Position numbers and translations under genes: made by a program | The notes under the pieces: generated by a model | Told to the model about the DNA's origin: nothing | The model's database searches: none | What the model saw: only the letters and a program-made list of their open reading frames with translations | Assembly: GCF_040958095.1 (NCBI RefSeq) | Contig: NC_091209.1 | Coordinates: 8,997,330-9,061,329 of the forward strand | Length of the DNA stretch: 64,000 bases | Direction: 5' to 3' | DNA from: Procambarus clarkii | Taxonomy: Eukaryota; Arthropoda; Malacostraca; Decapoda; Cambaridae | Part shown: piece after piece, positions 14,771-53,104 of the stretch | How positions within the stretch are numbered: the stretch's first letter is position 1 | Layout of the letters: the number at the start of each line of letters is the position of its first letter

Positions 14771-15270
14771 NNNNNNNNNNNNNNNNNNNNNNNNNNNNNN
14801 NNNNNNNNNNNNNNNNNNNNNNNNNNNNNNNNNNNNNNNNNNNNNNNNNNNNNNNNNNNNNNNNNNNNNNNNNNNNNNNNNNNNNNNNNNNNNNNNNNNN
14901 NNNNNNNNNNNNNNNNNNNNNNNNNNNNNNNNNNNNNNNNNNNNNNNNNNNNNNNNNNNNNNNNNNNNNNNNNNNNNNNNNNNNNNNNNNNNNNNNNNNN
15001 NNNNNNNNNNNNNNNNNNNNNNNNNNNNNNNNNNNNNNNNNNNNNNNNNNNNNNNNNNNNNNNNNNNNNNNNNNNNNNNNNNNNNNNNNNNNNNNNNNNN
15101 NNNNNNNNNNNNNNNNNNNNNNNNNNNNNNNNNNNNNNNNNNNNNNNNNNNNNNNNNNNNNNNNNNNNNNNNNNNNNNNNNNNNNNNNNNNNNNNNNNNN
15201 NNNNNNNNNNNNNNNNNNNNNNNNNNNNNNNNNNNNNNNNNNNNNNNNNNNNNNNNNNNNNNNNNNNNNN
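14771..15270. other. Assembly gap (500 N)
   Basis: Exactly 500 unknown bases, a size commonly used as a placeholder. It coincides with the left edge of the large GC-rich array, so the true left boundary and size of that array are not known. Confidence 0.99.
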
Positions 15271-18200
15271 GCAGCAACAGCCGCACCAGCAGCAACAGCC
15301 GCCACCAGCAGCCGCACCAGCAGCAACAACAGCCGCTTCAGCACCAGCAACAGCCGCACCAGCAGCAACAGCCGCACCAGCAGCAACAGCCGCACCAGCA
15401 GCAACAGCAGCAACAGCCGCACCAGCAGCAACAGCCGCACCAGCAGCAACAGCCGCACCAGCCGCACCAGCAGCAACAGCCGCACCAGCAGCAGCAACAG
15501 CCGCACCAGCAGCAGCAACAGCCGCACCAGCCGCACCAGCAGCAGCAACAGCCGCACCAGCAGCAGCAACAGCCGCACCAGCAGCAACAGCCGCACCAGC
15601 AGCCGCACCAGCACCAGCAACAGCCGCACCAGCACCAGCAACAGCCGCACCAGCAGCAACAGCCGCACCAGCAGCAGCAACAGCAGCACCAGCAGCAGCA
15701 ACAGCAGCACCAGCAGCCGCACCAGCACCAGCAACAGCAGCAGCAACAGCCGCACCAGCACCAGCAACAGCAGTACCAGCAGCCGCACCAGCAGCAACAG
15801 CCGCACCAGCAGCCGCACCAGCAGCAACAGCCGCACCAGCAGCCGCACCAGCAGCAACAGCCGCACCAGCAGCAGCAGCAGCAACAGCCGCACCAGCAGC
15901 AGCAACAGCCGCACCAGCAGCAACAGCCGCACCAGCAGCAACAGCCGCACCAGCAGCCGCACCAGCAGCAACAGCCGCACCAGCAGCCGCACCAGCAGCA
16001 ACAGCCGCACCAGCAGCAACAGCCGCACCAGCAGCAACAGCCGCACCAGCAGCAACAGCCGCACCAGCAGCAACAGCCGCACCAGCAGCAACAGCCGCAC
16101 CAGCAGCAACAGCCGCACCAGCAGCCGCACCAGCAGCAACAGCCGCACCAGCAGCAGCAGCAGCATCAGCCGCACCAGCAGCAATAACAGCCGCACCAGC
16201 AGCAACAGCCGCACCAGCAGCAACAGCAGCACCAGCAGCAACAGCCGCACCAGCAGCAGCACCAGCAGCAGCAACAGCCGCACCATCAGCAACAGCCGCA
16301 CACAGCAGCAGCACCAGCAGCAACAGCCGCACCAGCAGCAACAGCCGCACCAGCAGCACCAGCAGCACCAGCAGTAGCAACAGCCGCACCAGCAGCCGCA
16401 CCAGCAGCAGCAACCAGCAGCAACAGCCGCACCGCAGCACCAGCAGCAACAGCCGCACCAGCAGCAACAGCCGCACCAGCACAACAGCCGCACCAGCAGC
16501 AGCAACAGCCGCACCAGCAGCAGCAACAGCCGCACCAGCAGCAGCAACAGCCGCACCAGCAGCAACAGCAGCACAGCCGCACCAGCAGCAACAAGCCGCA
16601 CCAGCAGCAACAGCCGCACCAGCAGCACCAGCATCAACAGCCGCACCAGCAGCAACAGCCGCACCAGCAGCAACAGCCGCAGCAGCCGCACCAGCAGCAA
16701 CAGCCGCACCAAGCAGCAGCAACAGCCGCACCAGCAGCAACAGCCGCACCAGCAGCACCAGCCGCACCAGCCGCACCAGCAGCAACAGCCCGCACCTAGC
16801 GCAACAGCCGCAACAGCCGCACCAGCAGCAACAGCCGCACCAGCAGCAGCAACACCGCACCAGCAGCAGCAACAGCCGCACCACCGCACCAGCAGCAGCA
16901 ACAGCCGCACCAGCAGCAACAGCCGCACCAGCAGCCGCACCCAGCAGCAGCACCAGCAGCACCAGCAGCAACCAGCCGCACCAGCATGCATACAGCCGCA
17001 CCAGCAGCAAACAGCAGCAACAGCCGCACCAGCAGCAACAGCCGCACCAGCCGCACCAGCAGCAACAGCCGCACCAGCAGCAGCAACAGCCGCACCAGCA
17101 GCAGCAACAGCCGCACCAGCCGCACCAGCAGCAGCAACAGCCGCACCAGCAGCCGCACCAGCAGCAGCACCAGCAGCACCAGCAGCAACAGCCGCACCAG
17201 CAGCAACAGCCGCACCAGCAGCAACAGCAGCAACAGCCGCACCAGCAGCAACAGCCGCACCAGCAGCAACAGCCGCACCAGCAGCACCAGCAGCAACAGC
17301 AGCAACAGCCGCACCAGCAGCAACAGCAGCAACAGCCGCACCAGCAGCAACAGCCGCACCAGCAGCAGCACCAGCAGCAACAGCAGCAACAGCCGCACCA
17401 GCAGCAACAGCCGCACCAGCAGCAACAGCCGCACCAGCAGCCGCACCAGCAGCAACAGCCGCACCAGCAGCAGCAACAGCAGCACCAGCAGCAGCAACAG
17501 CCGCACCAGCAGCAACAGCCGCATCCAGCAGCCGCACCAGCAGCAACAACAGCCGCTTCAGCACCAGCAACAGCCGCACCAGCAGCAACAGCCGCACCAG
17601 CAGCAGCAACAGCAGCACCAGCAGCAACAGCAGCACCAGCAGCCGCACCAGCACCAGCAACAGCAGCAGCAACAGCCGCACCAGCACCATCAACAGCAGC
17701 ACCAGCAGCCGCACCAGCAGCAACAGCCGCACCAGCAGCCGCACCAGCAGCCGCACCAGCAGCAACAGCCGCACCAGCAGCCGCACCAGCAGCAACAGCC
17801 GCACCAGCAGCAGCAGCAGCAACAGCCGCACCAGCAGCAGCAACAGCCGCACCAGCAGCAACAGCCACACCAGCAGCAACAGCAGCACCAGCAGCAACAG
17901 CCGCACCAGCAGCAGCACCAGCAGCAGCAACAGCCGCACCAGCAGCAACAGCCGCACCAGCAGCAGCACCAGCAGCAACAGCTGCACCAGCAGCAACAGC
18001 CGCACCAGCAGCCGCACCAGCAGCAACAGCCGCACCAGCAGCAACAGCCGCACCAGCAGAAACAGCCGCACCAGCAGCAGCAACAGCCGCGCTAGCAGCA
18101 GCAACAGCCGCACCAGCAGCAGCAACAGCCGCACCAGCAGCAGCAACAGCCGCACCAGCAGCAGCAACAGCCGCACCAGCAGCAACAGCCGCACCAGCCG

Positions 18201-21200
18201 CACCAGCAGCAACAGCCGCACCAGCAGCAACAGCCGCACCAGCAGCACCAGCAGCAACAGCCGCACCAGCAGCAACAGCCGCACCAGCCGCACCAGCAGC
18301 AACAGCCGCACAGCAGCAGCAGCAACAGCCGCACCAGCAGCAGCAACAGCCGCACCAGCAGCAACAGCCGCACCAGCAGCACCAGCCGCACCAGCCGCAC
18401 CAGCAGCAACAGCCGCACCAGCAGCAACAGCCGCACCAGCAGCAACAGCCGCACCAGCAGCAGCAACAGGCGCACCAGCAGCAGCAACAGCCGCACCAGC
18501 CGCACCAGCAGCAGGCAACAGCCGCACCAGCAGCCGCACCAGCAGCAGCAACAGCCGCACCAGCAGCAACAGCCGCACCAGCAGCAACAGCCGCACCAGC
18601 AGCAGCAACAGCCGCACCAGCAGCAACAGCCGCACCAGCAGCCGCACCAGCAGCAGCACCAGCAGCACCAGCAGCAACAGCCGCACCAGCAGCAACAGCC
18701 GCAGCAGCAGCAACAGCAGCAACAGCCGCACCAGCAGCAACAGCCGCACCAGCTGCACCAGCAGCAACAGCAGCAACAGCCGCACCAGCAGCAACAGCAG
18801 CAACAGCCGCACCAGCAGCAACAGCCGCACCAGCAGCAGCACCAGCAGCAGCAGCAGCAACAGCCGCACCAGCAGCAACAGCCGCACCAGCAGCAACAGC
18901 CGCACCAGCAGCCGCACCAGCAGCAACAGCCGCACCAGCAAAGCCGCACCAGCAGCAACAGCCGCACCAGCAGCAACAGCCGCACCAGCAGCAACAGCCG
19001 CACCAGCAGCAACAGCCGCACCAGCAGCAACAGCCGCACCAGCAGCAACAGCCGCACCAGCAGCAACAGCCGCACCAGCAGCCGCACCAGCAGCAACAGC
19101 CGCACCAGCAGCAGCAGCAGCATCAGCCGCACCAGCAGCAATAACAGCCGCACCAGCAGCAACAGCCGCACCAGCAGCAACAGCAGCACCAGCAGCAACA
19201 GCCGCACCAGCAGCAGCACCAGCAGCAGCAACAGCCGCACCAGCAGCAACAGCCGCACCAGCAGCAGCACCAGCAGCAACAGCCGCACCAGCAGCAACAG
19301 CCGCACCAGCAGCACCAGCAGCACCAGCAGTAGCAACAGCCGCACCAGCAGCCGCACCAGCAGCAGCACCAGCAGCAACAGCCGCACCAGCAGCACCAGC
19401 AGCAACAGCCGCACCAGCAGCAACAGCCGCACCAGCAGCAACAGCCGCACCAGCAGCAGCAACAGCCGCACCAGCAGCAGCAACAGCCGCACCAGCAGCA
19501 GCAACAGCCGCACCAGCAGCAACAGCAGCAACAGCCGCACCAGCAGCAACAGCCGCACCAGCAGCAACAGCCGCACCAGCAGCACCAGCAGCAACAGCCG
19601 CACCAGCAGCAACAGCCGCACCAGCAGCAACAGCCGCAGCAGCCGCACCAGCAGCAACAGCCGCACCAGCAGCAGCAACAGCCGCACCAGCAGCAACAGC
19701 CGCACCAGCAGCACCAGCCGCACCAGCCGCACCAGCAGCAACAGCCGCACCAGCAGCAACAGCCGCACCAGCCGCACCAGCAGCAACAGCCGCACCAGCA
19801 GCAGCAACAGCCGCACCAGCAGCAGCAACAGCCGCACCAGCCGCACCAGCAGCAGCAACAGCCGCACCAGCAGCAACAGCCGCACCAGCAGCCGCACCAG
19901 CAGCAGCACCAGCAGCACCAGCAGCAACAGCCGCACCAGCAGCAACAGCCGCACCAGCAGCAACAGCAGCAACAGCCGCACCAGCAGCAACAGCCGCACC
20001 AGCCGCACCAGCAGCAACAGCCGCACCAGCAGCAGCAACAGCCGCACCAGCAGCAGCAACAGCCGCACCAGCCGCACCAGCAGCAGCAACAGCCGCACCA
20101 GCAGCCGCACCAGCAGCAGCACCAGCAGCACCAGCAGCAACAGCCGCACCAGCAGCAACAGCCGCACCAGCAGCAACAGCAGCAACAGCCGCACCAGCAG
20201 CAACAGCCGCACCAGCAGCAACAGCCGCACCAGCAGCACCAGCAGCAACAGCAGCAACAGCCGCACCAGCAGCAACAGCAGCAACAGCCGCACCAGCAGC
20301 AACAGCCGCACCAGCAGCAGCACCAGCAGCAACAGCAGCAACAGCCGCACCAGCAGCAACAGCCGCACCAGCAGCAACAGCCGCACCAGCAGCCGCACCA
20401 GCAGCAACAGCCGCACCAGCAGCAGCAACAGCAGCACCAGCAGCAGCAACAGCCGCACCAGCAGCAACAGCCGCACCAGCAGCCGCACCAGCAGCAACAA
20501 CAGCCGCTTCAGCACCAGCAACAGCCGCACCAGCAGCAACAGCCGCACCAGCAGCAGCAACAGCAGCACCAGCAGCAACAGCAGCACCAGCAGCCGCACC
20601 AGCACCAGCAACAGCAGCAGCAACAGCCGCACCAGCACCATCAACAGCAGCACCAGCAGCCGCACCAGCAGCAACAGCCGCACCAGCAGCCGCACCAGCA
20701 GCCGCACCAGCAGCAACAGCCGCACCAGCAAGCCGCACCAGCAGCAACAGCCGCACCAGCAGCAGCAGCAGCAACAGCCGCACCAGCAGCAGCAACAGCC
20801 GCACCAGCAGCAACAGCCACACCAGCAGCAACAGCAGCACCAGCAGCAACAGCCGCACCAGCAGCAGCACCAGCAGCAGCAACAGCCGCACCAGCAGCAA
20901 CAGCCGCACCAGCAGCAGCACCAGCAGCAACAGCTGCACCAGCAGCAACAGCCGCACCAGCAGCCGCACCAGCAGCAACAGCCGCACCAGCAGCAACAGC
21001 CGCACCAGCAGAAACAGCCGCACCAGCAGCAGCAACAGCCGCGCTAGCAGCAGCAACAGCCGCACCAGCAGCAGCAACAGCCGCACCAGCAGCAGCAACA
21101 GCCGCACCAGCAGCAGCAACAGCCGCACCAGCAGCAACAGCCGCACCAGCCGCACCAGCAGCAACAGCCGCACCAGCAGCAACAGCCGCACCAGCAGCAC

Positions 21201-24200
21201 CAGCAGCAACAGCCGCACCAGCAGCAACAGCCGCACCAGCCGCACCAGCAGCAACAGCCGCACCAGCAGCAGCAACAGCCGCACCAGCAGCAGCAACAGC
21301 CGCACCAGCAGCAACAGCCGCACCAGCAGCACCAGCCGCACCAGCCGCACCAGCAGCAACAGCCGCACCAGCAGCAACAGCCGCACCAGCAGCAACAGCC
21401 GCACCAGCAGCAGCAACAGGCGCACCAGCAGCAGCAACAGCCGCACCAGCCGCACCAGCAGCAGCAACAGCCGCACCAGCAGCCGCACCAGCAGCAGCAA
21501 CAGCCGCACCAGCAGCAACAGCCGCACCAGCAGCAACAGCCGCACCAGCAGCAGCAACAGCCGCACCAGCAGCAACAGCCGCACCAGCAGCCGCACCAGC
21601 AGCAGCACCAGCAGCACCAGCAGCAACAGCCGCACCAGCAGCAACAGCCGCAGCAGCAGCAACAGCAGCAACAGCCGCACCAGCAGCAACAGCCGCACCA
21701 GCTGCACCAGCAGCAACAGCAGCAACAGCCGCACCAGCAGCAACAGCAGCAACAGCCGCACCAGCAGCAACAGCCGCACCAGCAGCAGCACCAGCAGCAA
21801 CAGCAGCAACAGCCGCACCAGCAGCAACAGCCGCACCAGCAGCAACAGCCGCACCAGCAGCCGCACCAGCAGCAACAGCCGCACCAGCAGCAGCAACAGC
21901 AGCACCAGCAGCAGCAACAGCCGCACCAGCAGCAACAGCCGCACCAGCAGCAGCAACAGCCGCACCAGCAGCAGCAACAGCAGCAACAGCCGCACCAGCA
22001 ACAGCCGCACCAGCAGCAGCAACAGCCGCACCAGCACCAGCAACAGCCGCACCAGCACCAGCAACAGCCGCACCAGCAGCAACAGCCGCACCAGCAGCAA
22101 CAGCCGCACCAGCAGCAACAGCAGCAACAGCCGCACCAGCAGCAACAGCCGCACCAGCCGCACCAGCAGCAACAGCCGCACCAGCAGCAGCAACAGCCGC
22201 ACCAGCAGCAGCAACAGCCGCACCAGCCGCACCAGCAGCAGCAACAGCCGCACCAGCAGCAACAGCCGCACCAGCAGCCGCACCAGCAGCAGCACCAGCA
22301 GCACCAGCAGCAACAGCCGCACCAGCAGCAACAGCCGCACCAGCAGCAACAGCAGCAACAGCCGCACCAGCAGCAACAGCCGCACCAGCCGCACCAGCAG
22401 CAACAGCCGCACCAGCAGCAGCAACAGCCGCACCAGCAGCAGCAACAGCCGCACCAGCCGCACCAGCAGCAGCAACAGCCGCACCAGCAGCCGCACCAGC
22501 AGCAGCACCAGCAGCACCAGCAGCAACAGCCGCACCAGCAGCAACAGCCGCACCAGCAGCAACAGCAGCAACAGCCGCACCAGCAGCAACAGCCGCACCA
22601 GCAGCAACAGCCGCACCAGCAGCAACAGCAGCAACAGCCGCACCAGCAGCAACAGCAGCAACAGCCGCACCAGCAGCAACAGCCGCACCAGCAGCAGCAC
22701 CAGCAGCAACAGCAGCAACAGCCGCACCAGCAGCAACAGCCGCACCAGCAGCAACAGCCGCACCAGCAGCCGCACCAGCAGCAACAGCCGCACCAGCAGC
22801 AGCAACAGCAGCACCAGCAGCAGCAACAGCCGCACCAGCAGCAACAGCCGCACCAGCAGCCGCACCAGCAGCAACAACAGCCGCTTCAGCACCAGCAACA
22901 GCCGCACCAGCAGCAACAGCCGCACCAGCAGCAGCAACAGCAGCACCAGCAGCAACAGCAGCACCAGCAGCCGCACCAGCACCAGCAACAGCAGCAGCAA
23001 CAGCCGCACCAGCACCATCAACAGCAGCACCAGCAGCCGCACCAGCAGCAACAGCCGCACCAGCAGCCGCACCAGCAGCAACAGCCGCACCAGCAGCAAC
23101 AGCCGCACCAGCAGCCGCACCAGCAGCAACAGCCGCACCAGCAGCAGCAGCAGCAACAGCCGCACCAGCAGCAGCAACAGCCGCACCAGCAGCAACAGCC
23201 ACACCAGCAGCAACAGCAGCACCAGCAGCAACAGCCGCACCAGCAGCAGCACCAGCAGCAGCAACAGCCGCACCAGCAGCAACAGCCGCACCAGCAGCAG
23301 CACCAGCAGCAACAGCTGCACCAGCAGCAACAGCCGCACCAGCAGCCGCACCAGCAGCAACAGCCGCACCAGCAGCAACAGCCGCACCAGCAGAAACAGC
23401 CGCACCAGCAGCAGCAACAGCCGCGCTAGCAGCAGCAACAGCCGCACCAGCAGCAGCAACAGCCGCACCAGCAGCAGCAACAGCCGCACCAGCAGCAGCA
23501 ACAGCCGCACCAGCAGCAACAGCCGCACCAGCCGCACCAGCAGCAACAGCCGCACCAGCAGCAACAGCCGCACCAGCAGCACCAGCAGCAACAGCCGCAC
23601 CAGCAGCAACAGCCGCACCAGCCGCACCAGCAGCAACAGCCGCACCAGCAGCAGCAACAGCCGCACCAGCAGCAGCAACAGCCGCACCAGCAGCAACAGC
23701 CGCACCAGCAGCACCAGCCGCACCAGCCGCACCAGCAGCAACAGCCGCACCAGCAGCAACAGCCGCACCAGCAGCAACAGCCGCACCAGCAGCAGCAACA
23801 GGCGCACCAGCAGCAGCAACAGCCGCACCAGCCGCACCAGCAGCAGCAACAGCCGCACCAGCAGCCGCACCAGCAGCAGCAACAGCCGCACCAGCAGCAA
23901 CAGCCGCACCAGCAGCAACAGCCGCACCAGCAGCAGCAACAGCCGCACCAGCAGCAACAGCCGCACCAGCAGCCGCACCAGCAGCAGCACCAGCAGCACC
24001 AGCAGCAACAGCCGCACCAGCAGCAACAGCCGCAGCAGCAGCAACAGCAGCAACAGCCGCACCAGCAGCAACAGCCGCACCAGCTGCACCAGCAGCAACA
24101 GCAGCAACAGCCGCACCAGCAGCAACAGCAGCAACAGCCGCACCAGCAGCAACAGCCGCACCAGCAGCAGCACCAGCAGCAACAGCAGCAACAGCCGCAC

Positions 24201-26580
24201 CAGCAGCAACAGCCGCACCAGCAGCAACAGCCGCACCAGCAGCCGCACCAGCAGCAACAGCCGCACCAGCAGCAGCAACAGCAGCACCAGCAGCAGCAAC
24301 AGCCGCACCAGCAGCAACAGCCGCACCAGCAGCAGCAACAGCCGCACCAGCAGCAGCAACAGCAGCAACAGCCGCACCAGCAACAGCCGCACCAGCAGCA
24401 GCAACAGCCGCACCAGCACCAGCAACAGCCGCACCAGCACCAGCAACAGCCGCACCAGCAGCAACAGCCGCACCAGCAGCAACAGCCGCACCAGCAGCAA
24501 CAGCAGCAACAGCCGCACCAGCAGCAGCAACAGCCGCACCAGCACCAGCAACAGCCGCACCAGCAGCAGCAACAGCCGCACCAGCAGCAGCAACAGCCGC
24601 AGCAACAGCCGCACCAGCAGCAGCAACAGCCGCACCAGCAGCAGCAACAGCCGCACCAGCAGCAGCAACAGCCGCACCAGCAGCAGCAACAGCCGCACCA
24701 GCAGCAACAGCCGCACCACCAGCAGCAACAGCAGCACCAGCAGCAACAGCAGCACCAGCAGCCGCACCAGCAGCAACAGCAGCACCAGCAGCCGCACCAG
24801 CAGCAACAGCAGCACCAGCAGCAGCAACAGCCGCACCAGCAGCAACAGCAGCACCAGCAGCCGCACCAGCAGCAACAGCCGCACCAGCAGCCGCACCAGC
24901 AGCACCAGCCGCACCAGCAGCAACAGCCGCACCAGCAGCAGCACCAGCAGCAACAGCCGCACCAGCAGCAACAGCCGCACCAGCAGCAACAACAGCCGCA
25001 CCAGCAGCAACAGCCGCACCAGCAGCAACAGCAGCACCAGCAGCAACAGCCGCACCAGCAGCAACAGCCGCACCAGCAGCAGCAACAGCCGCACCAGCAG
25101 CCGCACCAGCAGCAACAGCCGCACCAGCAGCCGCACCAGCAGCAGCAACAGCCGCACCAGCAGCAACAGCAGCACCAGCAGCAACAGCCGCACCAGCAGC
25201 AGCACCAGCAACAGCCGCACCAGCAGCAGCACCAGCAGCAACAGCCGCACCAGCAGCAACAGCCGCACCAGCAGCAACAGCCGCACCAGCAGCAGCACCA
25301 GCAGCACCAGCAGTAGCAACAGCCGCACCAGCAGCCGCACCAGCAGCACCAGCAGCAACCGCCGCACCAGCAGCACCAGCAGCAACAGCCGCACCAGCAG
25401 CAGCAACAGCCGCACCAGCAGCAGCAACAGCCGCACCAGCAGCAGCAACAGCCGCACCAGCAGCAGCAACAGCCGCACCAGCAGCAGCAACAGCCGCACC
25501 AGCAGCAGCAACAGCCGCACCAGCAGCAACAGCAGCAACAGCCGCTTCAGCAGCAACAGCCGCACCAGCAGCAACAGCCGCACCAGCAGCACCAGCAGCA
25601 ACAGCCGCACCAGCAGCAACAGCCGCACCAGCCGCACCAGCTGCACCAGCAGCAACAGCTGCACCAGCAGCAACAGCCGCACCAGCAGCAACAGCCGCAC
25701 CAGCAGCAACAGCCGCACCAGCCGCACCAGCTGCACCAGCAGCAACAGCCGCACCAGCAGCAACAGCCGCACCAGCCGCACCAGCAGCAACAGCCGCACC
25801 AGCAGCAGCACCAGCAGCAGCAACAGCCGCACCAGCAGCAGCAACAGCCGCACCAGCAGCAGCAACAGCCGCACCAGCAGCAGCAACAGCCGCACCAGCA
25901 GCAGCAACAGCCGCACCAGCAGCAGCAACAGCCGCACCAGCAGCAGCAACAGCAGCACCAGCAGCAGCAACAGCAGCAGCAACAGGCGCACCAGCAGCAG
26001 CAACAGCAGCAGCAACAGCAGCACCAGCAGCAGCAACAGCAGCAGCAACAGCCGCACCAGCAGCAGCAACAGCAGCAGCAACAGCCGCACCAGCAGCCGC
26101 ACCAGCAGCAACAACAGCAGCAGCAACAGCCGCACCAGCAGGCGCACCAGCAGCAGCAACAGCAGCAGCAACAGCCGCACCAGCAGCAGCAACAGCAGCA
26201 GCAACAGCCGCACCAGCAGCAGCAACAGCAGCAGCAACAGCCGCACCAGCAGCCGCACCAGCAGCAACAACAGCAGCAGCAACAGCCGCACCAGCAGGCG
26301 TACCAGCAGCAGCAACAGCAGCAGCAACAGCCGCACCAGCAGCAGCAACAGCCGCACCAGCAGCAGCAACAGTCGCACCAGCAGCAACACCAGCAGCACC
26401 GGCAACTGCACCAACAGCAGCAGCACCACCAACAGCAGCACCAGTAGTAACACAAGTAACAGTACCAGTAGTAACACACGTAACAGCACCAGTAGCAACA
26501 GCAGCATCAGTAGCAGCACCAACAGCAGCAGCACCAGTAGCAAGAGCAGCAAGAGCAGCACAAGTAGCACCAACACCACC
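15271..26580. repeat. 11.3-kb GC-rich satellite of 18/21-bp CAG-containing units
   Basis: The basic unit is gcaccagcagcaacagcc (18 bp), varied by an added CAG (21 bp) and by 9-bp subunits. All lengths are multiples of 3, so every frame stays open for long distances: plus frames read QQQPHQ, SNSRTS or ATAAPA; minus frames read LLLVRL, AAVAAG or CCCWCG. Scattered stops and frame switches occur. The right edge decays after 26380 into imperfect cag/cac/agt motifs. The array also has kilobase-scale internal duplications. No start, splice or unique domain supports a protein, so it is annotated as satellite DNA. Confidence 0.95.
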
Positions 26581-27182
26581 ACGTGACGGGGTAGTGCTTC
26601 ACACCCTCCTAGCTCACCCCCACCTGACGGGCAGAGGTAGACAAAGGTGCCGGCGACACTGAGCCAATATCTTAAAACATGTCAACAGGTGATGTTATCA
26701 TCACTATACGTATTACAATTTAATCTGTATTTTGTTATATATTATTATCACATGTACGTGACGTTATACATCTGTAGAGTCTAGGTGATGGAGGTAATGT
26801 TATGAATTACATCAGTAACAGTGGATAACGAGCCACAGCGAGCAGTTACCCAGCCTAGACTCGTTCTGGTGCCTGGCTAGTGTTATGAAGACTGCAAGAA
26901 TAGACTAGCGGGTGAGCTTAGCAAGGTTACGTGAAGGCTGGGCCGCGCAAAGCCAGGCAGAGCGCTGGGGACACGCCGGCCTAGTGGAGGTTCTGACGGG
27001 GACTCCCGGACTTACCAGTATGTACGTATTAACTGTGTTGTGGAACCAACGGGTTGTGGACTGCTAGGGTGAGTGCAGTTGTATTGTTTGAGTTAAAATA
27101 TCACAGCGTCTTCATGAACAAGAACTAAATATTCGTCAGTACAGCCACTGAACGGTTTATTTCTTTATATAGAAGATGTATT
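26581..27182. other. Unassigned stretch right of the satellite
   Basis: About 600 bp of unique-looking DNA, locally GC-rich near 26930-27010. No open frame with recognisable motifs and no repeat copy elsewhere in the window is seen. Confidence 0.5.
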
Positions 27183-33479: not shown

Positions 33480-34420
33480 TCAGATCAGTTGGGTGGTGTG
33501 CGCGTCGCTGATGTGTGAGAGTTTGGCTCCCAGACCCCTGGTAGTTTACTATTTAGTTCCGTATTATGAAGCAGTCATGTTTTGTTACTAGCTGTACCTG
33601 GCCATGCGTTGCTGTGGTTCAGCTGAGCTACAGCAACCCTTCCCTATCCTCCCCAACCATCCTCGCTCCCCCATCCCCTCGTCCTCCCCACCATACCTTG
33701 AGGGGGGGGGGGGCAGTACAGGAAAGTAACAAGTTGTTCAATTTTGTTAAAAATTTATTTACAAACCGTTAATGGTAAGGGCTGCAACTGGTCAAAGTTT
33801 CAGCATCACACCCTAAATAGAAAAGTGAGAAAAAAAATACACAACGTATTATGCAACGAATTTTCAACATTTTCGAAACATTTCTAGGAACACATGTCAA
33901 CTAAAATCATTTCAATAACAGTCAGATATCACATTAGCATATAATAAAGAATTTCACTTAGCAGTTTTATCAAAAAAGTGTTTAGTGCAATAATACAACT
34001 ATTCAAAGTTCCCCTTCCAAAAATATGCAATATATGATGTTTATCAATATTTATAAAATCAATATATGGACTTTGGATTAAAGTGTTACGTGAAATTGTA
34101 GAAGCACAAACTCTACATATAAGGTGTAATTTGCATGTAAATTGATTAATAAATGAAAGCTGTGAAACGCCTTGAAGTTGAAAATTTCTTACATGAGTAA
34201 GATAAGATCAAAGTTTGGCCACCTGTAGCAGAGCTTGACGTCGACCAATTTCGTTCATAATTTACACCCTTGCAGATAGGCATCCGTTCAGCAAGGTGTG
34301 TAAGCTCAATGCAACTCCCCTGATAACAACCGGAAAAAAAATTAAAAAAAAATTGCGCATATAAATAATATATATATATAATTATATATAATATATATAT
34401 ACTAGTATATTTTGGTAGCA
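33480..34420. other. Unassigned AT-rich stretch with a C/G-rich patch
   Basis: 33600-33715 is C-rich and ends in an 11-G run; the rest is AT-rich. No open frame with motifs is seen. Confidence 0.45.
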
Positions 34421-34424
34421 GTCT

Positions 34425-34640
34425 TTCCTGTGGACATATATTATTAAATATGACCGAAAAAGTAAGATTAATAATTTTAACACGAATTTTTTCTCTTGTG
34501 TTTCTTTTCACTGTTGATGGTAATTGGACAAATCAATTCTCCAAAATTCATTTTTATTTCTAGTCTGACGCGACACTTGAACGCGTTTCGTAATAACTTA
34601 TTACATTTTCAAAGACTTTTAGTTTACACACAAACTATTA
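34425..34640 (-). mobile_element. Penelope-like element terminal repeat, copy A
   Basis: On the minus strand it runs aagtctttgaaaatgtaata, through cgaaacgcg and gcgtcagactag, to aaaaatgaattttggagaa and tttttcggtcatatttaata. Three further copies occur at 36124-36320 (minus), 36600-36860 (plus) and 38045-38315 (plus). The shared block ends in a start of translation (MNFGE...), which is frameshifted in this copy. It lies downstream of the RT/GIY-YIG body in the same orientation, consistent with a Penelope-type terminal repeat. Confidence 0.7.
34561..34618 (-). ncRNA. Degenerate hammerhead-like fold, copy A
   Basis: On the minus strand the order is agtct (stem I), ttgaaaa (core 1), gtaataa/ttattac (stem II), gaaa (core 2), cgcg...cgcg (stem III), tc, and agact (stem I). 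This is the order of a type I hammerhead. Core 1 departs from CUGANGA at positions 3 and 8, which change together from C-G to U-A. This copy has the best stem II. Activity is unknown. Confidence 0.35.
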
Positions 34641-34830
34641 CCTGCAAACACTAAACAGAGTTCTTACTTATGCTATGGTTTAAACAGCTTTCATTTTTCA
34701 TTTTATACCCGCATTTTGGGTGAGGTGATATGTTACAACAGTTTTGGATGAGGTGAACAAAACTTTCAATACAGGATAGAACACGAAACAATGGGTATTG
34801 AAGGTAAGAATGGAAGTAATTGCAGAGGGC

Positions 34831-36003
34831 CTATTGGCCCATATTTCTTAATGCTAATATACTGGAGCGGAGTCTTGAAGTGGGTAGAATATAGTTGTGC
34901 ATTAATTGGCTGTTGATTGCTGGTGTTGACTTCTTGATGTGTAGTGCCTCGCAGATATCAAGCCGCCTGCTATCGCTGTATCTATCGATGATTTCTGTGT
35001 TTGCTAAGATTTCTCTGGTGATGGTTTGGTTGTGGGAAGAGATTATATGTTCCATAATGGAGCCCTGTTGCTTATGCATCTTTAATCGCCTGGAAAGAGA
35101 TGTTGTTGTCTTGCCTATATACTGAGTTTTTTGAGGCTAACAGTCCCCAAGAGGGCATTTGAAGGCATAGACGACGTTGGTCTCTCTTAAAGTGTTCTGC
35201 TTTGTGTCTGGAGAGTTTCTCATGAGTAGGCTGGCCGTTTTTTTGGTTTTATAGTAAATCGTCAGTTGTATCTTCTGATTTTTGTCTGTAGAGATAACGT
35301 TTCTATTAACAATATCTTTCAGGACCCTTTCCTCCATTTTATGAGCTGTGGAAAAGTTCCTGTAAAATAGTCTAATAGGGGGTATAGGTGTTGTGTTAGT
35401 TGTCTCTTCAGAGGACCGTTGTTGACTAGGACCTGCTTTACCCTAGAGTTCTTCGTCGACTTGCTTCCATCCTGAGCTGTGGCTGAGAGCACGGTCGACA
35501 TAAGCATTAACAACACTCCTCTTGTACCTGTCTGGGCAGTCACTGTTGGCATTTAGGCACATTCCTATGTTTGTTTCCTTAGTGTAGACTGCAGTGTGGA
35601 AACCTCCGCTCCTTTCCATGACTGTTACATCTAGAAAGGGCAGCTTCCCATCCTTCTCCATCTCGTAAGTGACACGCAACATAGAATTATGCTCAAATGC
35701 CTTCTTCAGCTCCTGCAGATGTCTGACATCAGGTACCTGTGTAAAAATGTTATGAACATACCTGCAGTATATGACCAGTTTCAAGTTCATGTCGACTAAG
35801 ACCTTTTGTTCGATGGTACCCATGTAGAAGTTCGCAAACAGGACACGTAGGGGAGAACCCATGGCGACCCCATCTACTTGCTTATACATGTGCCCATTCG
35901 GGCTCAAGAAGGGGGCCTCTTTAGTACAAGCTTTGAGTAGTTCCCTTAGAATGTTTTCTGGTATGTCAAGAGGAGTACAGGCCGGATCACAGGTCGTTCG
36001 ACG
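34831..36003 (-). pseudogene. Penelope-like element polyprotein (RT + GIY-YIG), broken
   Basis: Minus-strand reading gives the second part of a Penelope-type reverse transcriptase: MYKQVDGVAMGSPLRVLFAN (fingers/palm motif), CRYVHNIFTQ at the catalytic box, then KLPFLDVTV. A GIY-YIG endonuclease follows: VVYAFKCPLGDC, a TAG stop, then TQYIGKTTTSLSRRLK, EHIISSHNQ, and an Ile/Asp-rich tail to 34831. Breaks visible are the YVDD box changed to YVHN (two codons), a frameshift near 35450-35550, another near 35337, and a TAG inside the GIY-YIG domain at about 35140. The N-terminal part is absent on this strand. Penelope elements characteristically pair an RT with GIY-YIG, which supports the call. No active product is possible from this copy. 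Confidence 0.88.
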
Positions 36004-36081
36004 TAGAATCACTGTTTACCAACGTATCTGTGGATGAAACAATCAGGATGATAGCGGACAGAGTGTATCGTGATCCGGCCT

Positions 36082-36085
<4 letters not shown>
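36004..36085 (+). pseudogene. Penelope-like RT fragment in opposite orientation
   Basis: The plus strand reads SLFTNVSVDETIRMIADRVY and then RDPACT. This is the stretch that should directly precede the DPACTPLDIPENI start of the minus-strand body. The two pieces overlap by DPACT and face away from each other, so the element is inverted at this junction. It ends in a (TA)n tract at 36086. Confidence 0.75.

Positions 36086-36118
<33 letters not shown>
36086..36118. repeat. (TA)n microsatellite
   Basis: Pure AT dinucleotide at the right edge of the inverted RT fragment. Confidence 0.95.
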
Positions 36119-36122
<4 letters not shown>

Positions 36123-36123
36123 A

Positions 36124-36320
36124 AATATATATTATTAAATATGACCGAAAAAGTAAGATTAATAATTCTAACACGAATTTTCTCAATCTTTCGTACATTA
36201 TGCTTCACTGTTGGAGGTAAATCAAAAATCACTTCTCCAAAATTCATTTTTATTTCTAGTCTGACGCGACACGGGCGCGTTTCGTAAAACTTATTACATT
36301 TTCAAAGACTTCACAAATTA
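36124..36320 (-). mobile_element. Penelope-like element terminal repeat, copy B
   Basis: Minus-strand terminal repeat with an open start MNFGEVIFDLPPTVKHNVRK continuing to IEKIRVRIINLTFSVIFNN, then AT repeats. It is an inverted near-identical copy of 36600-36860. In the region before 36345, aattattgcacaa words are duplicated in inverted form. Confidence 0.75.
36256..36311 (-). ncRNA. Degenerate hammerhead-like fold, copy B
   Basis: Same order of stems as copy A. Stem I is agtct/agact, core 1 is ttgaaaa, stem II is gtaa/ttac, core 2 is gaaa, stem III is cgcg/cgcg with a 7-base loop, and the cleavage triplet is gtc. Confidence 0.35.
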
Positions 36321-36344
36321 TTGCACAAAGTTGTGCAATAATTG

Positions 36345-36860
36345 GCTGCAATAATACAGCCAATTATTGCACAACTATATTCTACCCACCTCAAGACTCC
36401 GCTCCAATATAGAAGCATCAAGAAATATGGACCAATAGGTTTTCTACAAACACTTCTATTCAATACCCATTGTTTCTGTTCTGTCTTGTGTTGATACTTT
36501 TAATACCCTATTAATATCCTCTAGTGTTCTGTCTTGTGTTAATGCCACATCATCCTTCCCACCTCACTCAAATGTAATGCCACATCACCCTTCCCACCTC
36601 ACTCAAATGTAGATATAAAATCAGGGAAACGCAAGTTCTAATCAGTTGTGTATTTGTGAAGTCTTTGAAAATGTAATAAGTTTTACGAAACGCGCCCGTG
36701 TCGCGTCAGACTAGAAATAAAAATGAATTTTGGAGAAGTGATTTTTGATTTACCTCCAACAGTGAAGCATAATGTACGAAAGATTGAGAAAATTCGTGTT
36801 AGAATTATTAATCTTACTTTTTCGGTCATATTTAATAATATATGTCTACAGGAAAGACTG
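36345..36860 (+). mobile_element. Penelope-like element 3' end with terminal repeat, copy C
   Basis: On the plus strand the end of the GIY-YIG frame is visible (QLLHNYILPTSRLRSNIEAS), parallel to the C-terminus at 34840-34920. A 3' region with a catcayccttcccacctcac duplication follows (36545-36608). The terminal repeat then starts at about 36655 and has an intact MNFGEVIFDLPPTVKHNVRK at 36723. It is therefore a 5'-truncated element in the opposite orientation to 34831-36003. Confidence 0.75.
36659..36713 (+). ncRNA. Degenerate hammerhead-like fold, copy C
   Basis: Sequence identical to copy B but on the plus strand: agtct, ttgaaaa, gtaa...ttac, gaaa, cgcgcccgtgtcgcg, tc, agact. Confidence 0.35.
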
Positions 36861-36873
36861 CTACCAAAATATA

Positions 36874-36875
<2 letters not shown>

Positions 36876-36946
<71 letters not shown>
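36876..36946. repeat. (TA)n microsatellite
   Basis: About 70 bp of AT dinucleotide between the Penelope-like terminal repeat and a TIR element. Confidence 0.96.
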
Positions 36947-36948
<2 letters not shown>

Positions 36949-36949
<1 letters not shown>

Positions 36950-37309
36950 CGTACCTAGTAGCCAGAACGCACTTTTTGGCCTACTATGCAAGGCCCGATT
37001 TGCCTAATAAGCCAAGTTTTCCTGAATTAATATATTTTCTCTAATTATTTTCTTATGAAATGATAAAGCTACCCATTTCATTATGTATGAGGTCAATTTT
37101 TTTTATTTGAGTTAAAATTAACGTAGATATATGACCGAACCTAACCAACCCTACCTAACCTAACCTATCTTTATAGGTTAGGTAGCCGAAAAAGTTAGGT
37201 TAGGTAGGTTAGGTAGTCGAAAAACAATTAATTCATGGATACATGGCTTATTAGGCAAATCGGGCCTTGCATAGTAGGCTGAGAAGTGCGTTCTGGCTAC
37301 TAGGTACGA
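36949..37309. mobile_element. MITE-like element with ~70-bp terminal inverted repeats
   Basis: The left end tcgtacctagtagccagaac continues to gcatagtaggc-type sequence. It is mirrored at the right end by gttctggctactaggtacga. Inverse copies of ggcttattaggcaaatcggg are also present in both arms. The inner part has cctaacctaac/gttaggttagg words that extend the foldback. Both sides are TA-rich, so a TA target duplication cannot be resolved. Confidence 0.8.
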
Positions 37310-37310
37310 C

Positions 37311-37432
37311 ATATATATATAAAATTATATATATATATATATGTGTGTGTATATATATATATATGTGTATATATATATATGTGTATATATATATATATAT
37401 GTGTATATATATATATATATATATGTGTGTGT
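37311..37432. repeat. Compound (TA)n/(TG)n microsatellite
   Basis: AT runs separated by short GTGTGT blocks in a quasi-regular spacing. Confidence 0.95.
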
Positions 37433-37706
37433 CGGAAAATCCGACACCATTTAATATATCATACAGATAATAGCTGTATTGTATAAACAAGTAACCCATA
37501 GAAAACGTAACTTGTAGTGGAATTACCGTCTAAAGAAAACGGGATATCATCACCACATACTATTATAATTCACCAGCTATTCTGCTGGGAATTATTCTTA
37601 AATACATTAGTCTTTGGACTTTACCATCATAAAACATCTCATATAAATTAACTTAATTATCAGTATTAAAGTAGAGTAAATGTGACCCTTCTATCACTTT
37701 CTGAAA

Positions 37707-37905
37707 TCTGGACAATGTAAGCCAGGCGTCAGTGAGGAAGGAGGGGCAGCCATTGTTGTGTCACATCCGAGACACGTGGAGCAAATTCGGCTCCTATCAT
37801 ATCTGGACAATGTCGGCCAGGCGTCAATAGTATGGAGTGTTAGTCGCAGCCATTGTTGAGACTAGACCAGAGGCTCACACGGGAGCAAATTCGGCTCCTG
37901 TTAAT
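37707..37905 (+). repeat. Imperfect direct repeat, two ~95-100-bp copies
   Basis: Each copy has tctggacaatgt, gccaggcgtca, gcagccattgttg and gagcaaattcggctcct in the same order. The second copy carries a short insertion. Confidence 0.8.
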
Positions 37906-38044
37906 TTACTTGGACGTAGTGTTATGGAAACCAGAAGTGTACCATTATCAACACGCTGTCTACAAATCAAGTTAAGTGTTCTTTCCGAAACCCATTATCT
38001 TTCATTTGTGGCCATTAATGTCATTATATAGGGTGACCCGGTTA

Positions 38045-38315
38045 GAGCACGACATAATTAGTAATTAAAATGTAGATATAAATAAATCGGAGATGTGTAA
38101 GTTCTATTCAGTTGTGTATGTGTAAACTAAAGTCTTTGAAAATGTAATAAGTTTTACGAAACGAGCTCAAGTGTCGCGTCAGACTAGAAATAAAAATGAA
38201 TTTTGGAGAATTGATTTTTGAATTACCATCAACAGTGAAAAGAAACGTACGAAAGATCGAGAAAATTCGTGTTAGAATTATTAATCTTACTTTTTCGGTC
38301 ATATTTAATAAAATA
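38045..38315 (+). mobile_element. Penelope-like element terminal repeat, copy D
   Basis: Plus-strand terminal repeat with start MNFGELIFELPSTVKRNVRK at 38196 and continuation to FSVIFNK, then an AT/GT microsatellite (38316-38368). No RT or endonuclease sequence is attached. From 38369 to 38520 nothing is recognised. Confidence 0.75.
38130..38187 (+). ncRNA. Degenerate hammerhead-like fold, copy D
   Basis: Same architecture, with stem I agtct/agact, core ttgaaaa and gaaa. Stem III here is cgag...cgcg with one mismatch, so this is the most decayed copy. Confidence 0.28.
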
Positions 38316-38316
38316 A

Positions 38317-38348
<32 letters not shown>

Positions 38349-38525
38349 ATATTATGTATATATATAATGCCTGCACCTATTTATTATAACCCTAAAACAT
38401 ACTAACCTATTGTAATTGATCCGAGTTGTGGGTCCTCAAGGTGGCACTGGAATGGGCACTAATAGGCACCTGTCCCATTGCCCGGTTCACCTTCCTCAGG
38501 ATCCTGTCTCGGCTTGGTGGAGAGA

Positions 38526-51600: not shown

Positions 51601-52284
51601 ACGGAGATATTGAATAAAGGAGGAGGAACCCGGCTTCTCCCGTACTATTTCGGCTGGCCAGTGTGGCTCATGGGAAAAGTATTTTATCTACTTAAAGTGC
51701 TTTTGTCCAATCTGTTGCACAAACGAATAGTGCATTTGAAAAAATCCACAAGGGCCATGATGAGGCAATGAGTCACAATAACGTGGCTGAAGTAGTTTGA
51801 CTAGACCACACACTAGAAGGTGAAGGGACGACGATGTTTCGGTCCATCCTGGATTATTCTCAAGTCGATTGTCAAGTAAAGTCGAAACGACGTCGTCCCT
51901 TCACTTTCTAGTGTGTGGTCTGGTCAAATCCACCCTTGTGGATTTGTTAATTTGCTATATCACGTTATTGTGATTTGTGTGAATAATGCTTTAATTATAA
52001 TTTTGAAAAATATATAAAATGAACCCATTTATCTGCACGTCTTAAATGATAAAATTATTTATAAAGGATGCAGAACTTGGCGCCCAGACGTTGATCTACC
52101 TGGCAGTGTCGGAGGAAGTAGACGGCATCAGTGGGAAGTACTTCGTTGACTGTAAGGTGAGCTGGCGAACGATGTGGTTTACATCCATCTGGCAGCATTA
52201 ATGTTATAAAGCTTTGTGCCATTTTCTGTTGACTCTTCCCTTTTATAGGACGTACTGATGCCCCAACCTTCTAAACAAACGTGA
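39480..52284 (+). CDS. Retinol-dehydrogenase-like short-chain dehydrogenase (SDR), 8 exons
   Basis: Joined exons 39480-39624, 40059-40151, 40517-40641, 47358-47472, 51285-51479, 51563-51696, 52067-52156 and 52249-52284 give 310 residues with every intron GT-AG and the frame kept. Residues 3-23 are a hydrophobic N-terminal anchor. TGASAGIG (44-51) is the nucleotide-binding turn and ILACRN (66-71) fits NADP(H) preference. NNAA (123-126) replaces the usual NNAG. The catalytic residues are Asn147, Ser175, Tyr203 and Lys207 (YGDTK), and HPG is at 232-234. Family members of the RDH11/12/13/14 type reduce or oxidise retinoids and other carbonyls at membranes; the substrate here is inferred. The length is close to the usual 310-330 residues. 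The last exon gives a short, unusual C-terminus. Start: ATG in an A-rich context, no upstream in-frame exon seen. The gene is expanded to 12.8 kb by repeats in introns 3 and 4. Confidence 0.9.
39838..39960 (+). mobile_element. I-like LINE 3' UTR fragment in intron 1
   Basis: The words tagcgccctcgga, cacattcgatggtgctacat, agccttctcag and ttggtgcc match the 3' ends at 60620-60710 and 61625-61690, followed by gataattactta. It is a 5'-truncated relic. Confidence 0.7.
40059..40151 (+). CDS. Dehydrogenase exon 2
   Basis: 93 nt after acceptor ttcctggcag. It completes [20 protein letters not shown] and CRN, with donor gtattt, phase 1. Confidence 0.9.
40517..40641 (+). CDS. Dehydrogenase exon 3
   Basis: 125 nt after acceptor cacactttcag, with donor gtaagg. 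It encodes the [20 protein letters not shown] segment, including the LDxSDxxSVR motif typical of the family. Confidence 0.9.
41131..41219 (-). mobile_element. tRNA-headed SINE (family E), minus copy of inverted pair
   Basis: Minus-strand head atgtcgtagctcagtcgatt, B-box-like cttcgaatcctcg, then cttgtggatttgttcat. It faces a plus-strand copy at 41266-41375 across an A-rich spacer. The pair sits in intron 3. Confidence 0.85.
41266..41375 (+). mobile_element. tRNA-headed SINE (family E), plus copy of inverted pair
   Basis: Plus-strand head catgtcgtagctcagtcgat, B-box-like ggttcgaatccc, then tgtggatttgttcatttgat and the tail ctattgtgatttgtgtg. The composite is flanked by the 10-bp direct repeat cagtagatct (41118-41127 and 41380-41389). 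Confidence 0.85.
41376..43148. other. Intron 3, repeat-poor part
   Basis: About 1.8 kb of AT-rich intron. A short duplication of acaggtgttagtccata lies near 41499-41533. Open frames of 62 and 74 codons (41901 and 42627) have no motifs, no splice context and are not called. Confidence 0.6.
43149..44922. repeat. 1.8-kb C-run minisatellite in intron 3
   Basis: About 50 units of gttttttccagggaggtggc (or ggtacggc) followed by cgac and a C run of 5-15, so unit length varies from about 31 to 42 bp. Long proline- or glycine-rich frames on both strands come from the repeat alone. The minus (template) strand carries regular G runs. Confidence 0.96.
45385..45625 (+). pseudogene. Retroelement gag fragment with altered zinc knuckle
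   Basis: Plus-strand reading gives [20 protein letters not shown], a stop, then [18 protein letters not shown]. The Cys spacing matches a CCHC knuckle (C-x2-C-x4-H-x4-C) with the His replaced by Tyr. It is in intron 3 and has at least one stop. A LINE or LTR gag origin is inferred. Confidence 0.45.
46006..46378. mobile_element. 373-bp near-perfect palindrome (foldback/MITE)
   Basis: The outer arms ccaacccgttctcgcaaatt and their inverse close the element. Inside are the self-complementary taataagtcaatattgactt, gtgacatac, ccttgaaaagcttcatagaa, cttacctaacctacttagta, and a short loop around 46170-46200. It is non-coding and located in intron 3. Confidence 0.88.
46476..46676 (+). pseudogene. RTE/craniofacial-type LINE endonuclease fragment
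   Basis: The frame reads [12 protein letters not shown], a stop, [29 protein letters not shown], then [16 protein letters not shown]. The block GDFNARVG is the conserved DFN motif of AP-endonuclease domains in LINEs; here G has become R. One internal stop and no RT follow, so it is a fragment. Confidence 0.7.
46677..47268. other. Intron 3, unassigned AT-rich part
   Basis: About 590 bp with no clear feature. Confidence 0.5.
47269..47340. repeat. 21-bp tandem repeat (ggcttgaggctagtgtggtgt)
   Basis: Three and a half imperfect copies ending only about 17 bp upstream of the exon 4 acceptor. Confidence 0.88.
47358..47472 (+). CDS. Dehydrogenase exon 4
   Basis: 115 nt after acceptor ctcttgacag, with donor gtaagt, phase 1. 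It encodes [20 protein letters not shown] and then [15 protein letters not shown], including the catalytic Asn of the TNHFGHF motif. Confidence 0.92.
47473..48147. other. Intron 4, proximal unassigned part
   Basis: About 675 bp without a recognised feature. Confidence 0.5.
48148..48575 (+). pseudogene. CR1/Jockey-type LINE reverse-transcriptase fragment
   Basis: The plus strand encodes [20 protein letters not shown], then [13 protein letters not shown] (motif A, DxxxAFD), [20 protein letters not shown] (motif B) and MFADDA (catalytic FADD box). Frame changes and stops (for example after FADDA) mark it as dead. It sits in intron 4 in the sense orientation. Confidence 0.85.
48797..49832. repeat. 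1.0-kb variable minisatellite in intron 4
   Basis: About 23 units share cagcaacagtgtagtgtagc followed by a (CAC/CCA) run of 2 to 9 trinucleotides and tgcccc or tgctcc. The variable trinucleotide length gives units of 33-60 bp, so all three minus frames are open in places. The gene-sense strand is C/A-rich. Confidence 0.96.
49986..50240 (+). mobile_element. SINE family A, full length, in intron 4
   Basis: Starts gggagccggtcggccgagca, with B-box ggttcgatccc, and the common body and tail. It ends cctcaagaagataacc then a C run. It is in the same orientation as the host gene. Confidence 0.9.
50241..50691. other. Intron 4, unassigned
   Basis: Contains a G run at 50395-50404. No gene or clear repeat is seen. 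Confidence 0.5.
50692..50948. mobile_element. Foldback/MITE-like element, copy in intron 4
   Basis: Begins ggggccagattcacgaacca and ends with its inverse (cgtgactctggccc). The centre has agcctcctggtgcttcggag as in the 6262-6576 copy. A (g)actag word abuts the left end; ctag also abuts the right end of the 6262-6576 copy. Confidence 0.82.
50950..51073 (-). mobile_element. tRNA-headed SINE (family F) fragment
   Basis: On the minus strand the sequence tagccttcggtggtacagtg continues to gtaactgtagatttgctggg and ttctagtctggccctggga, a tRNA-like head with A-box and B-box-like parts. The body ends at cagcagtaattgggtacc. Confidence 0.65.
51285..51479 (+). CDS. Dehydrogenase exon 5 (catalytic Ser, Tyr, Lys)
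   Basis: 195 nt after acceptor aaatccccag, with donor gtgagt, phase 1. It encodes [14 protein letters not shown] and [20 protein letters not shown], carrying the catalytic Ser and the YxxxK pair. Confidence 0.93.
51563..51696 (+). CDS. Dehydrogenase exon 6
   Basis: 134 nt after acceptor ctaccccgcag. It encodes [17 protein letters not shown] and ends FYLLK, which joins well to exon 7 DAELGAQ by comparison with the family pattern. The donor (aaa|gtgctt) is weak. Reading through instead adds 24 codons, ending at TGA 51769-51771 inside SINE-derived sequence. Confidence 0.8.
51738..51995. mobile_element. SINE E-like fragments around a foldback repeat in intron 6
   Basis: aaatccacaagggccatgat at the left and cttgtggatttgttaatttg at the right are family E SINE parts. 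Between them, 51796-51927 is an inverted repeat: gaccacacactagaaggtga facing tcactttctagtgtgtggtc. Non-coding. Confidence 0.7.
52067..52156 (+). CDS. Dehydrogenase exon 7
   Basis: 90 nt after acceptor atttataaag, with donor gtgagc, phase 0. It encodes [20 protein letters not shown] and [10 protein letters not shown], the conserved C-terminal GAQTxIYLAV...SGKYFxDC block. Confidence 0.92.
52249..52284 (+). CDS. Dehydrogenase exon 8 (short C-terminus)
   Basis: After acceptor cttttatag, the frame reads [11 protein letters not shown] and stops at TGA. Family members usually continue with a longer tail containing a LW-type motif, so either this is a shortened C-terminus or another 3' exon is used. 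A T-rich stretch with iterated cttgcattcatcc words follows (52330-52480). Confidence 0.6.
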   Translation, partial: DVLMPQPSKQT

Positions 52285-52992: not shown

Positions 52993-53104
52993 TTGCTCCT
53001 CACCTCACTCTTTTTACCTGTTCCTCACACAAGACTTAATAACACTCCAGGATGGAGTGAAACGTTGTCGCTTCAAAAAGATTAAGACACAGAAAAAGAC
53101 TTAA

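Follow-up and report, generated by a model that had tools for sequence, protein, structure and literature searches.

Hammerhead-type folds with a U-A core pair in the terminal repeats of a Penelope-like element of Procambarus clarkii, and insertion ends at their predicted cut

Do the terminal repeats of a Penelope-like element (PLE) in the genome of Procambarus clarkii carry a hammerhead ribozyme, and does the RNA of the element still cut itself there? The question is raised by a 64,000-nucleotide stretch of contig NC_091209.1 (positions 8,997,330 to 9,061,329; hereafter the window), for which a sequence-only reading had proposed four copies, A to D, of a hammerhead-like fold in such repeats. 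On checking the window sequence we found all four AGTCT…AGACT copies where they had been placed, with slightly trimmed coordinates (Table 1), and the order AGTCT, TTGAAAA, T, stem II, GAAA, stem III, TC and AGACT was correct in each of them. Three stems surround the core, stem I is open and the parts follow the order of a type I hammerhead. The stem III pairing CGCG/CGCG ascribed to all four copies holds for A, B and C but not for D, which has CGAG/CGCG and three of four pairs, and stem II of copy A, put at up to 7 bp, folds into 6 bp with a 3-nt loop. Copies B and C have the same sequence across the whole fold, their arms being 99% complementary. The core UUGAAAA departs from CUGANGA by the change of the canonical pair C3-G8 to U3-A8, as had been read, retains the remaining fixed core letters and is followed by one extra U after A9. 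As the four copies belong to the same family, they count as one observation and not as four, and the presence of the fold in the window is confirmed. Judging from the sequence evidence set out below, we consider it likely that these are type I hammerheads in the pseudo-long terminal repeats (pseudo-LTRs) of an autonomous PLE, lying near the 5′ end of its transcript, and that its RNA would cut itself in part.

The resemblance might be a chance likeness of an AT-rich 5′ untranslated region to a hammerhead, and two core mismatches and one extra base did have to be tolerated to recognize it. In a relaxed scan (at most two core mismatches, zero or one extra base, and stem lengths of at least 5, 4 and 4 for stems I, II and III), copies A, B and C were the only matches in the window; copy D fails because its stem III has three of four pairs and the scan wants four. 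Random sequence, generated by a first-order Markov model trained on the window minus positions 15001-27000, gave 58 matches per 1,220 Mb on one strand, or about 0.006 per 64 kb on both strands. The fold is unlikely to be a chance product and, with sister families that have the same kind of core and compensated stems, mere likeness becomes extremely improbable.

The carrier of the fold was characterized from its copies elsewhere in the genome. The exact core TTTGAAAATGTAATAAGTT..TTACGAAACG occurs in 45,450 copies in the 4.03 Gb genome (reversed control, 0). A protein search with the start of the open reading frame (ORF) scored 150 of 90,698 candidates, of which 149 were identical across 39 residues, and several of these matches sit in intact open frames of 839 codons. 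The intact protein P0001 matches RVT_1 at 1.8e-6, and the piece of an intact copy that corresponds to the C-terminal remnants in the window matches PF01541 (GIY-YIG) at 6.8e-4; the two lie in one frame of the intact copy L069, both just under the family cut-offs, and mark the element as a PLE. The decayed pieces in the window itself (35443-36015 and 34831-35136) gave no Pfam match at E<=0.01. Fetched loci contain direct tandem units of exactly 2750 bp and head-to-head pairs, as expected of PLE pseudo-LTRs. By comparison with consensus promoter motifs, we take 36614-36647 to be the likely core promoter of copy C and its TCAGTT to be the main upstream initiator; the fold would then start about 16 nt past the presumed initiator base.

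To what extent the fold is shared can be seen in relatives of the element. A pattern for the conserved reverse transcriptase motif matched 18,531 places and led to a sister family, F3 (locus L075), whose N-terminus (MSFGELLFQ..) is similar to but different from that of the window family. Its hammerhead reads CAC-UUGAGAA-U-GAACC(AUGGA)GGUUC-GAAAC-GUC↓GUG (the arrow marks the cut or junction here and below) and has a stem II of its own, GAACC/GGUUC. A motif pattern consisting of the core and GAAACGU, with stem II unconstrained, an extra base demanded between A9 and stem II, and only Y at position 3 and R at position 8 admitted, occurred at 70,274 genomic places (reversed control, 28). By subtraction, 67,379 of these (95.9%) have U-A at positions 3/8, the others being C-G (1,776 places; control 3), C/A (820; control 4) and U/G (299; control 10). 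About 100 places were listed per search, and the make-up of families was judged among these matches: the C-G places listed belong mainly to a few families of their own (F6, F8, F9 and F10), and the C/A places listed are mostly strays of the large F2 family together with the small families L091, L092 and L093. Four stem III pairs are present in 19 of 26 distinct units of the window family (17 CGCG/CGCG and 2 CGTG/CGTG). The other fetched families have GAAACGU(C/U/G) and no stem III hairpin like that of the window family; since the pattern by which they were found demanded CGAAACGT, families with a window-like stem III would for the most part have escaped it.

The fold persists in families whose stem II sequences are unrelated. 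Among 7 family representatives, 31 of 35 stem II cells are paired, a value equalled by 9 of 20,000 arm shuffles. For the covariation analysis 12 sequences were first aligned, and two F8 rows were dropped from the model and the pair count because the aligner had misplaced a gap in both; the window family and L086, L091, L094 and L095 were left out of the resulting 10 motifs. Counted by sequences rather than by events, and with pair 3-8 limited by the search pattern, 85% of the cells are paired (shuffles, 67.5%), 19 cells carry changes on both sides (shuffles, 7.3) and the covariation score reaches 0.558 (shuffles, 0.243), with 0 of 500 shuffles attaining any of these values; slid alignments scored 0.214 at most. 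The lack of compensatory changes among genomic copies had been named beforehand as what would refute the ribozyme, and compensatory stem changes were found among the relatives. As judged from these alignments, PLE families of this genome have maintained the fold through compensatory changes that affect stem I, stem II and the core pair 3-8. A covariance model (R1) built from the 10 other-family motifs, when run over the whole window, found copy A at E 0.0059 and copies B and D at E 0.085, while copy C was missed at default filters and recovered with filters off; within 34400-38400, copies A to D were the top four. The placing of type I hammerheads in PLE terminal repeats is thus borne out by the order and pairing of the parts, by covariation and by the PLE protein matches.

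The unpaired U before stem II had been called atypical, which was not supported. In the motifs parsed here, those with canonical C3-G8 included, a single extra base separates A9 from stem II; the patterns used demand that base. A variant pattern with G straight after A9 matched 611 places (reversed control, 174), and the matches listed were largely F2 motifs in which G replaces the U and the extra base is still present. By our reading, the printed RNA of PAc, a Poseidon element of Anolis carolinensis, parses as CUGAGGA-U-GCC..GGGC-GAAACGUC (PMC11167929). The extra U was therefore rejected as a sign of decay, as canonical-core motifs and the PAc RNA carry it too.

Hammerheads in PLEs were reportedly first described by Cervera and De la Pena in 2014. 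They are a known, mostly minimal, kind of ribozyme, and the window family resembles the minimal type I forms in its terminal-repeat position, type I order, weak stems and GAAAC..GUC, but differs from them by having a stem III (4 bp plus A-U, with a loop of 7-9 nt) and the core pair U3-A8 (PMC6155905, PMC7229834). In animal genomes, the tandem repeats of non-LTR retrozymes likewise carry type I hammerheads; retrozymes are, however, short and non-autonomous with canonical hammerheads, whereas the window element encodes its own reverse transcriptase (PMC7229834). Natural hammerheads with the same U3-A8 core swap are known, and covarying 3/8 bases have been reported to be active in vitro (PMC3088659); several examples are described there, against the 67,379 of 70,274 motifs found here with one pattern in one genome. 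The fold studied here is therefore a known kind of hammerhead with a known core swap, and with a stem III that the other fetched families do not display. PAc shares with it the extra U, and in our reading its A9, U and G10.1 also spell AUG; unlike the window family it has C3-G8, its hammerhead AUG is the ORF start, and the cut lies 26 bases downstream of it (PMC11167929). In the window family the hammerhead AUG is followed by UAA at once and the ORF begins after the cut. In the F3 locus L075 (minus strand), a frame of 33 codons begins at the AUG of the hammerhead core and ends in a UGA that shares bases with the start codon of the main frame (AUGA), an arrangement that might permit termination-reinitiation.

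In the mechanism proposed here, transcription would start at the TATA/initiator just upstream of it, and the RNA would fold and cut itself between C17 and A1.1 (GUC↓AGACU). The cut would remove about 64 nt and leave a new 5′ end 15 nt before the ORF start, and in tandem 2750-bp arrays every pseudo-LTR copy could cut, giving RNA of unit length. As the cut is predicted at GUC↓AGACU, complementary DNA made from cut RNA should begin at AGACT, and such ends are present in the genome. The sequence AGACTAGAAATAAAAATGAATTTTGG is kept, with all five preceding bases unlike GCGTC, at 481 genomic places (control, 0). A search for junctions with TA-repeats gave 483 matches, many of them hitting one place in different registers, and the matches listed represent 23 distinct places: 10 are exactly ↓AGACT, 4 lie before CGAAAC, 3 lie near GAAAT, one is AGTCTT↓AGACT, one is C↓AGACT with a small duplication and 4 are of other kinds. 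Over a range of 31 positions, 10 of 23 at the cut has a P of 9e-10 if junctions were uniform; with C4:52199600 and 52199709, two arms of one place, counted once, 9 of 22 has a P of 1e-8.

Individual loci agree with ends at this position. At all of the first four AGTCT↓AGACT places fetched, two arms lie head-to-head and each begins at the cut; in two of the four, short additional stretches of the same sequence separate the arms. L104 is likewise a head-to-head pair at the cut and has another AGTCT↓AGACT next to it, L103 has an extra AGTCT between its arms, a TA-repeat separates the two arms of L102, both of which start at AGACT, and L105 and L113 are head-to-head with both arms from the cut and filler between them. 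The cut-site end is preceded by TA- or A-rich DNA in L109, L110 and L112, and by ordinary-looking DNA in L107 and L115, although short matches to the element start precede the cut in both, inverted and 7 bases long in L107, direct and 9 bases long in L115. In L114 (C7:39375528-39375618) an internal deletion of the hammerhead starts inside the core and extends precisely to the base that follows the predicted cut. A tandem repeat of about 61 bp with the cut-site end AGACTAGAAATAAAAATGAATTTTGG was also observed at C2:37574836-37575172.

These junctions might instead reflect stops of the reverse transcriptase at folded RNA, or products of short-homology joining. The fold is located right at the junctions; among the TA junctions listed, those near GAAAT (3 of 23) are expected for a stop at the base of stem I, and TA homology could have helped at those before CGAAAC (4 of 23), while the second arm of L106, L108, L111 and L116 begins slightly inward of the cut, by a few bases. 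However, a stop before stem I should give ↓AGAAAT and one before stem III should retain C17, and ↓AGACT was found at 10 of 23 places against one of 23 for C↓AGACT among the matches listed. When only starts with A, where TA homology is possible, are considered, 10 of 14 fall at one of 9 positions (P about 2e-7, the choice of the 14 being our own). Stops and joining are therefore an improbable source of the AGACT ends. Alternatively, the same base may be a second transcription start: GTCAGAC, read as sequence, resembles an initiator (TCAGAC) whose +1 A would be that base, and the AT-rich TAATAAGTTTTA lies about 30 nt upstream. The resemblance is weak, the AT-rich stretch is stem II and has a different sequence in other families, and covariation is left unexplained, which makes a second start decidedly unlikely.

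Several results weigh against an RNA that cuts itself, and some of them would suit a relic that descends from a working hammerhead, no longer cuts and is carried along in the pseudo-LTR. The minimum-energy fold is the hammerhead for copy A only, with competing folds for B, C and D, and none of five folded stretches is clearly more stable than its own shuffles (z -0.84 to +0.81), single-sequence folding being not decisive here. The core is altered at two positions, and stem III is weakened in copy D and has fewer than four pairs in 7 of 26 distinct units. None of 99 distinct 5′ alignment ends at loci L001-L082 and the window falls at the cut, five of the 99 (at -64) being rather subfamily differences; these loci under-represent cut-site ends, as they were largely selected through intact hammerheads or ORF starts. 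In PAc, cleavage needed protein, mutants left insertion unaffected, and no RNA reads started or ended at the cut (PMC11167929). Beyond this, none of 30 ORF-start loci has a junction at the cut, and none of the fetched loci shows a single end in unique DNA that is fully clean. Two of the five covariation measures were not above shuffles, namely pairs altered on both sides (6 against 4.6; 98 of 500 reach) and further pair types (9 against 10.0; 422 of 500 reach). Small families with the C3/A8 mismatch exist (820 places; L091-L094) and, among 100 U/G matches listed, mostly F2 strays, 7 differ little from one F3-like sequence (TTGAGGATGAACC..) and might form a small subfamily, U-G being a wobble pair. 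The search with Rfam hammerhead models that the sequence-only reading had advised gave no match at E<=10 in the window, in 4.7 kb or in one copy, nor in 16 relatives including canonical-core families; a whole-genome search with RF00163 also gave no match and was equally silent in every control genome. As canonical-core PLE motifs of the same genome fail too, we treat this silence as uninformative and do not hold it against the hammerhead.

Against a relic stand the covariation of pair 3-8 and stem II between families, the reported in vitro activity of covarying 3/8 bases (PMC3088659) and the junctions found exactly at the cut, and we regard a relic as unlikely. That the family is a weakened lineage is likewise not shown, as U3-A8 occurs naturally and 3/8 covariants are reported to be active in vitro (PMC3088659), 839-codon frames are intact, and some copies begin at the predicted cut. 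Self-cutting of the RNA, as argued from the junctions, probably occurs in part. Cut-site ends look like a minority of copies, often joined head to head, and cutting, or the use of cut RNA, would seem to be partial because junctions examined without selecting the cut site lie elsewhere. The junctions at the cut are possibly a new footprint of cutting; in listings of openly licensed PMC papers we noticed none that describes junctions of insertions at the cut of a PLE hammerhead. A further-reaching proposal, which we advance tentatively, is that the U3-A8 hammerhead works in living cells and that the cut RNA could serve as the template for reverse transcription, leaving insertions and head-to-head dimers that begin at the cut.

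The features of the window are collected in Table 1.

Table 1. Hammerhead folds, element parts and related motifs located in the window
Feature	Position	Strand	Details
Copy A	34617-34562	minus	stem I 34617-34613/34566-34562; core UUGAAAA 34612-34606; extra U 34605; stem II 34604-34590 (6 bp); GAAA 34589-34586; stem III CGCG/CGCG; predicted cut 34567/34566
Copy B	36310-36258	minus	197-nt arm, inverted relative to copy C
Copy C	36660-36712	plus	stem I 36660-36664/36708-36712; core 36665-36671; extra U 36672; stem II 36673-36686; GAAA 36687-36690; stem III 36691-36694/36702-36705; predicted cut 36707/36708
Copy D	38131-38185	plus	stem III CGAG/CGCG, 3/4 pairs; predicted cut 38180/38181
Presumed promoter motifs before copy C	36614-36619; 36642-36647	plus	TATAAA; initiator-like TCAGTT; read from sequence
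Same layout before copy D	38077-38082; 38108-38113	plus	TATA; initiator-like
Start-stop upstream frame of the window family	36671-36676	plus	AUG formed by A9, extra U and first stem II base; UAA follows immediately
Start of PLE reading frame	36723-36842	plus	MNFGEVIFDLPP...; 15 nt beyond predicted cut; 839-codon frame intact elsewhere
Decayed reverse transcriptase piece, same kind of PLE	35443-36015	minus	by-eye match to intact protein P0001
Decayed C-terminal pieces, two frames	34831-35442	minus	GIY-YIG-like endonuclease residues (CPLGDC..YIGKTTTSLSRRL)
F2-type hammerhead of second PLE family	51825-51871	minus	core UUGAGAA; R1 model 31.5 bits, E 1.9e-7
Diverged hammerhead-like motif, perhaps F2 type	53028-53074	plus	core UUAAUAA; R1 model 31.8 bits, E 1.5e-7

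The motif at 51825-51871 has 83% identity to the F2 locus L083, and that at 53028-53074 has no BLAST match by F2 loci. F2-type motifs also occur as a satellite with tandem units of about 37-40 bp that consist almost entirely of the hammerhead motif and are thus little but ribozyme (C11:44950798-44951618; C8:21214423-21214712, locus L095; C6:24465229-24465332). Some F2 PLE repeats (L083; C1:6565648/6565698) contain two head-to-head hammerhead motifs with about 20 nt between the matched stretches, forming a long hairpin. Within the decayed element of the window, a short inverted piece of reverse transcriptase (35973-36083) has inverted copies of GTACAGGCCGGATCAC on both flanks. Apart from the element, positions 16001-26000 form a long asymmetric block of ten kb in which T is very scarce on the plus strand (AT skew 0.96-0.99, GC 66-67%).

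Why PLEs carry hammerheads is a question sharpened by PAc, for which the ribozyme was dispensable for insertion in vitro (PMC11167929). Should the cut RNA indeed act as the template in P. clarkii, the junctions would be genomic evidence that a PLE ribozyme processes it. The approximately 70,000 motifs in C-G, C/A, U/G and U-A states, together with junctions at the cut site, make the purpose of PLE hammerheads testable, and the question they pose is whether lineages with mismatched cores lose their cut-site junctions.

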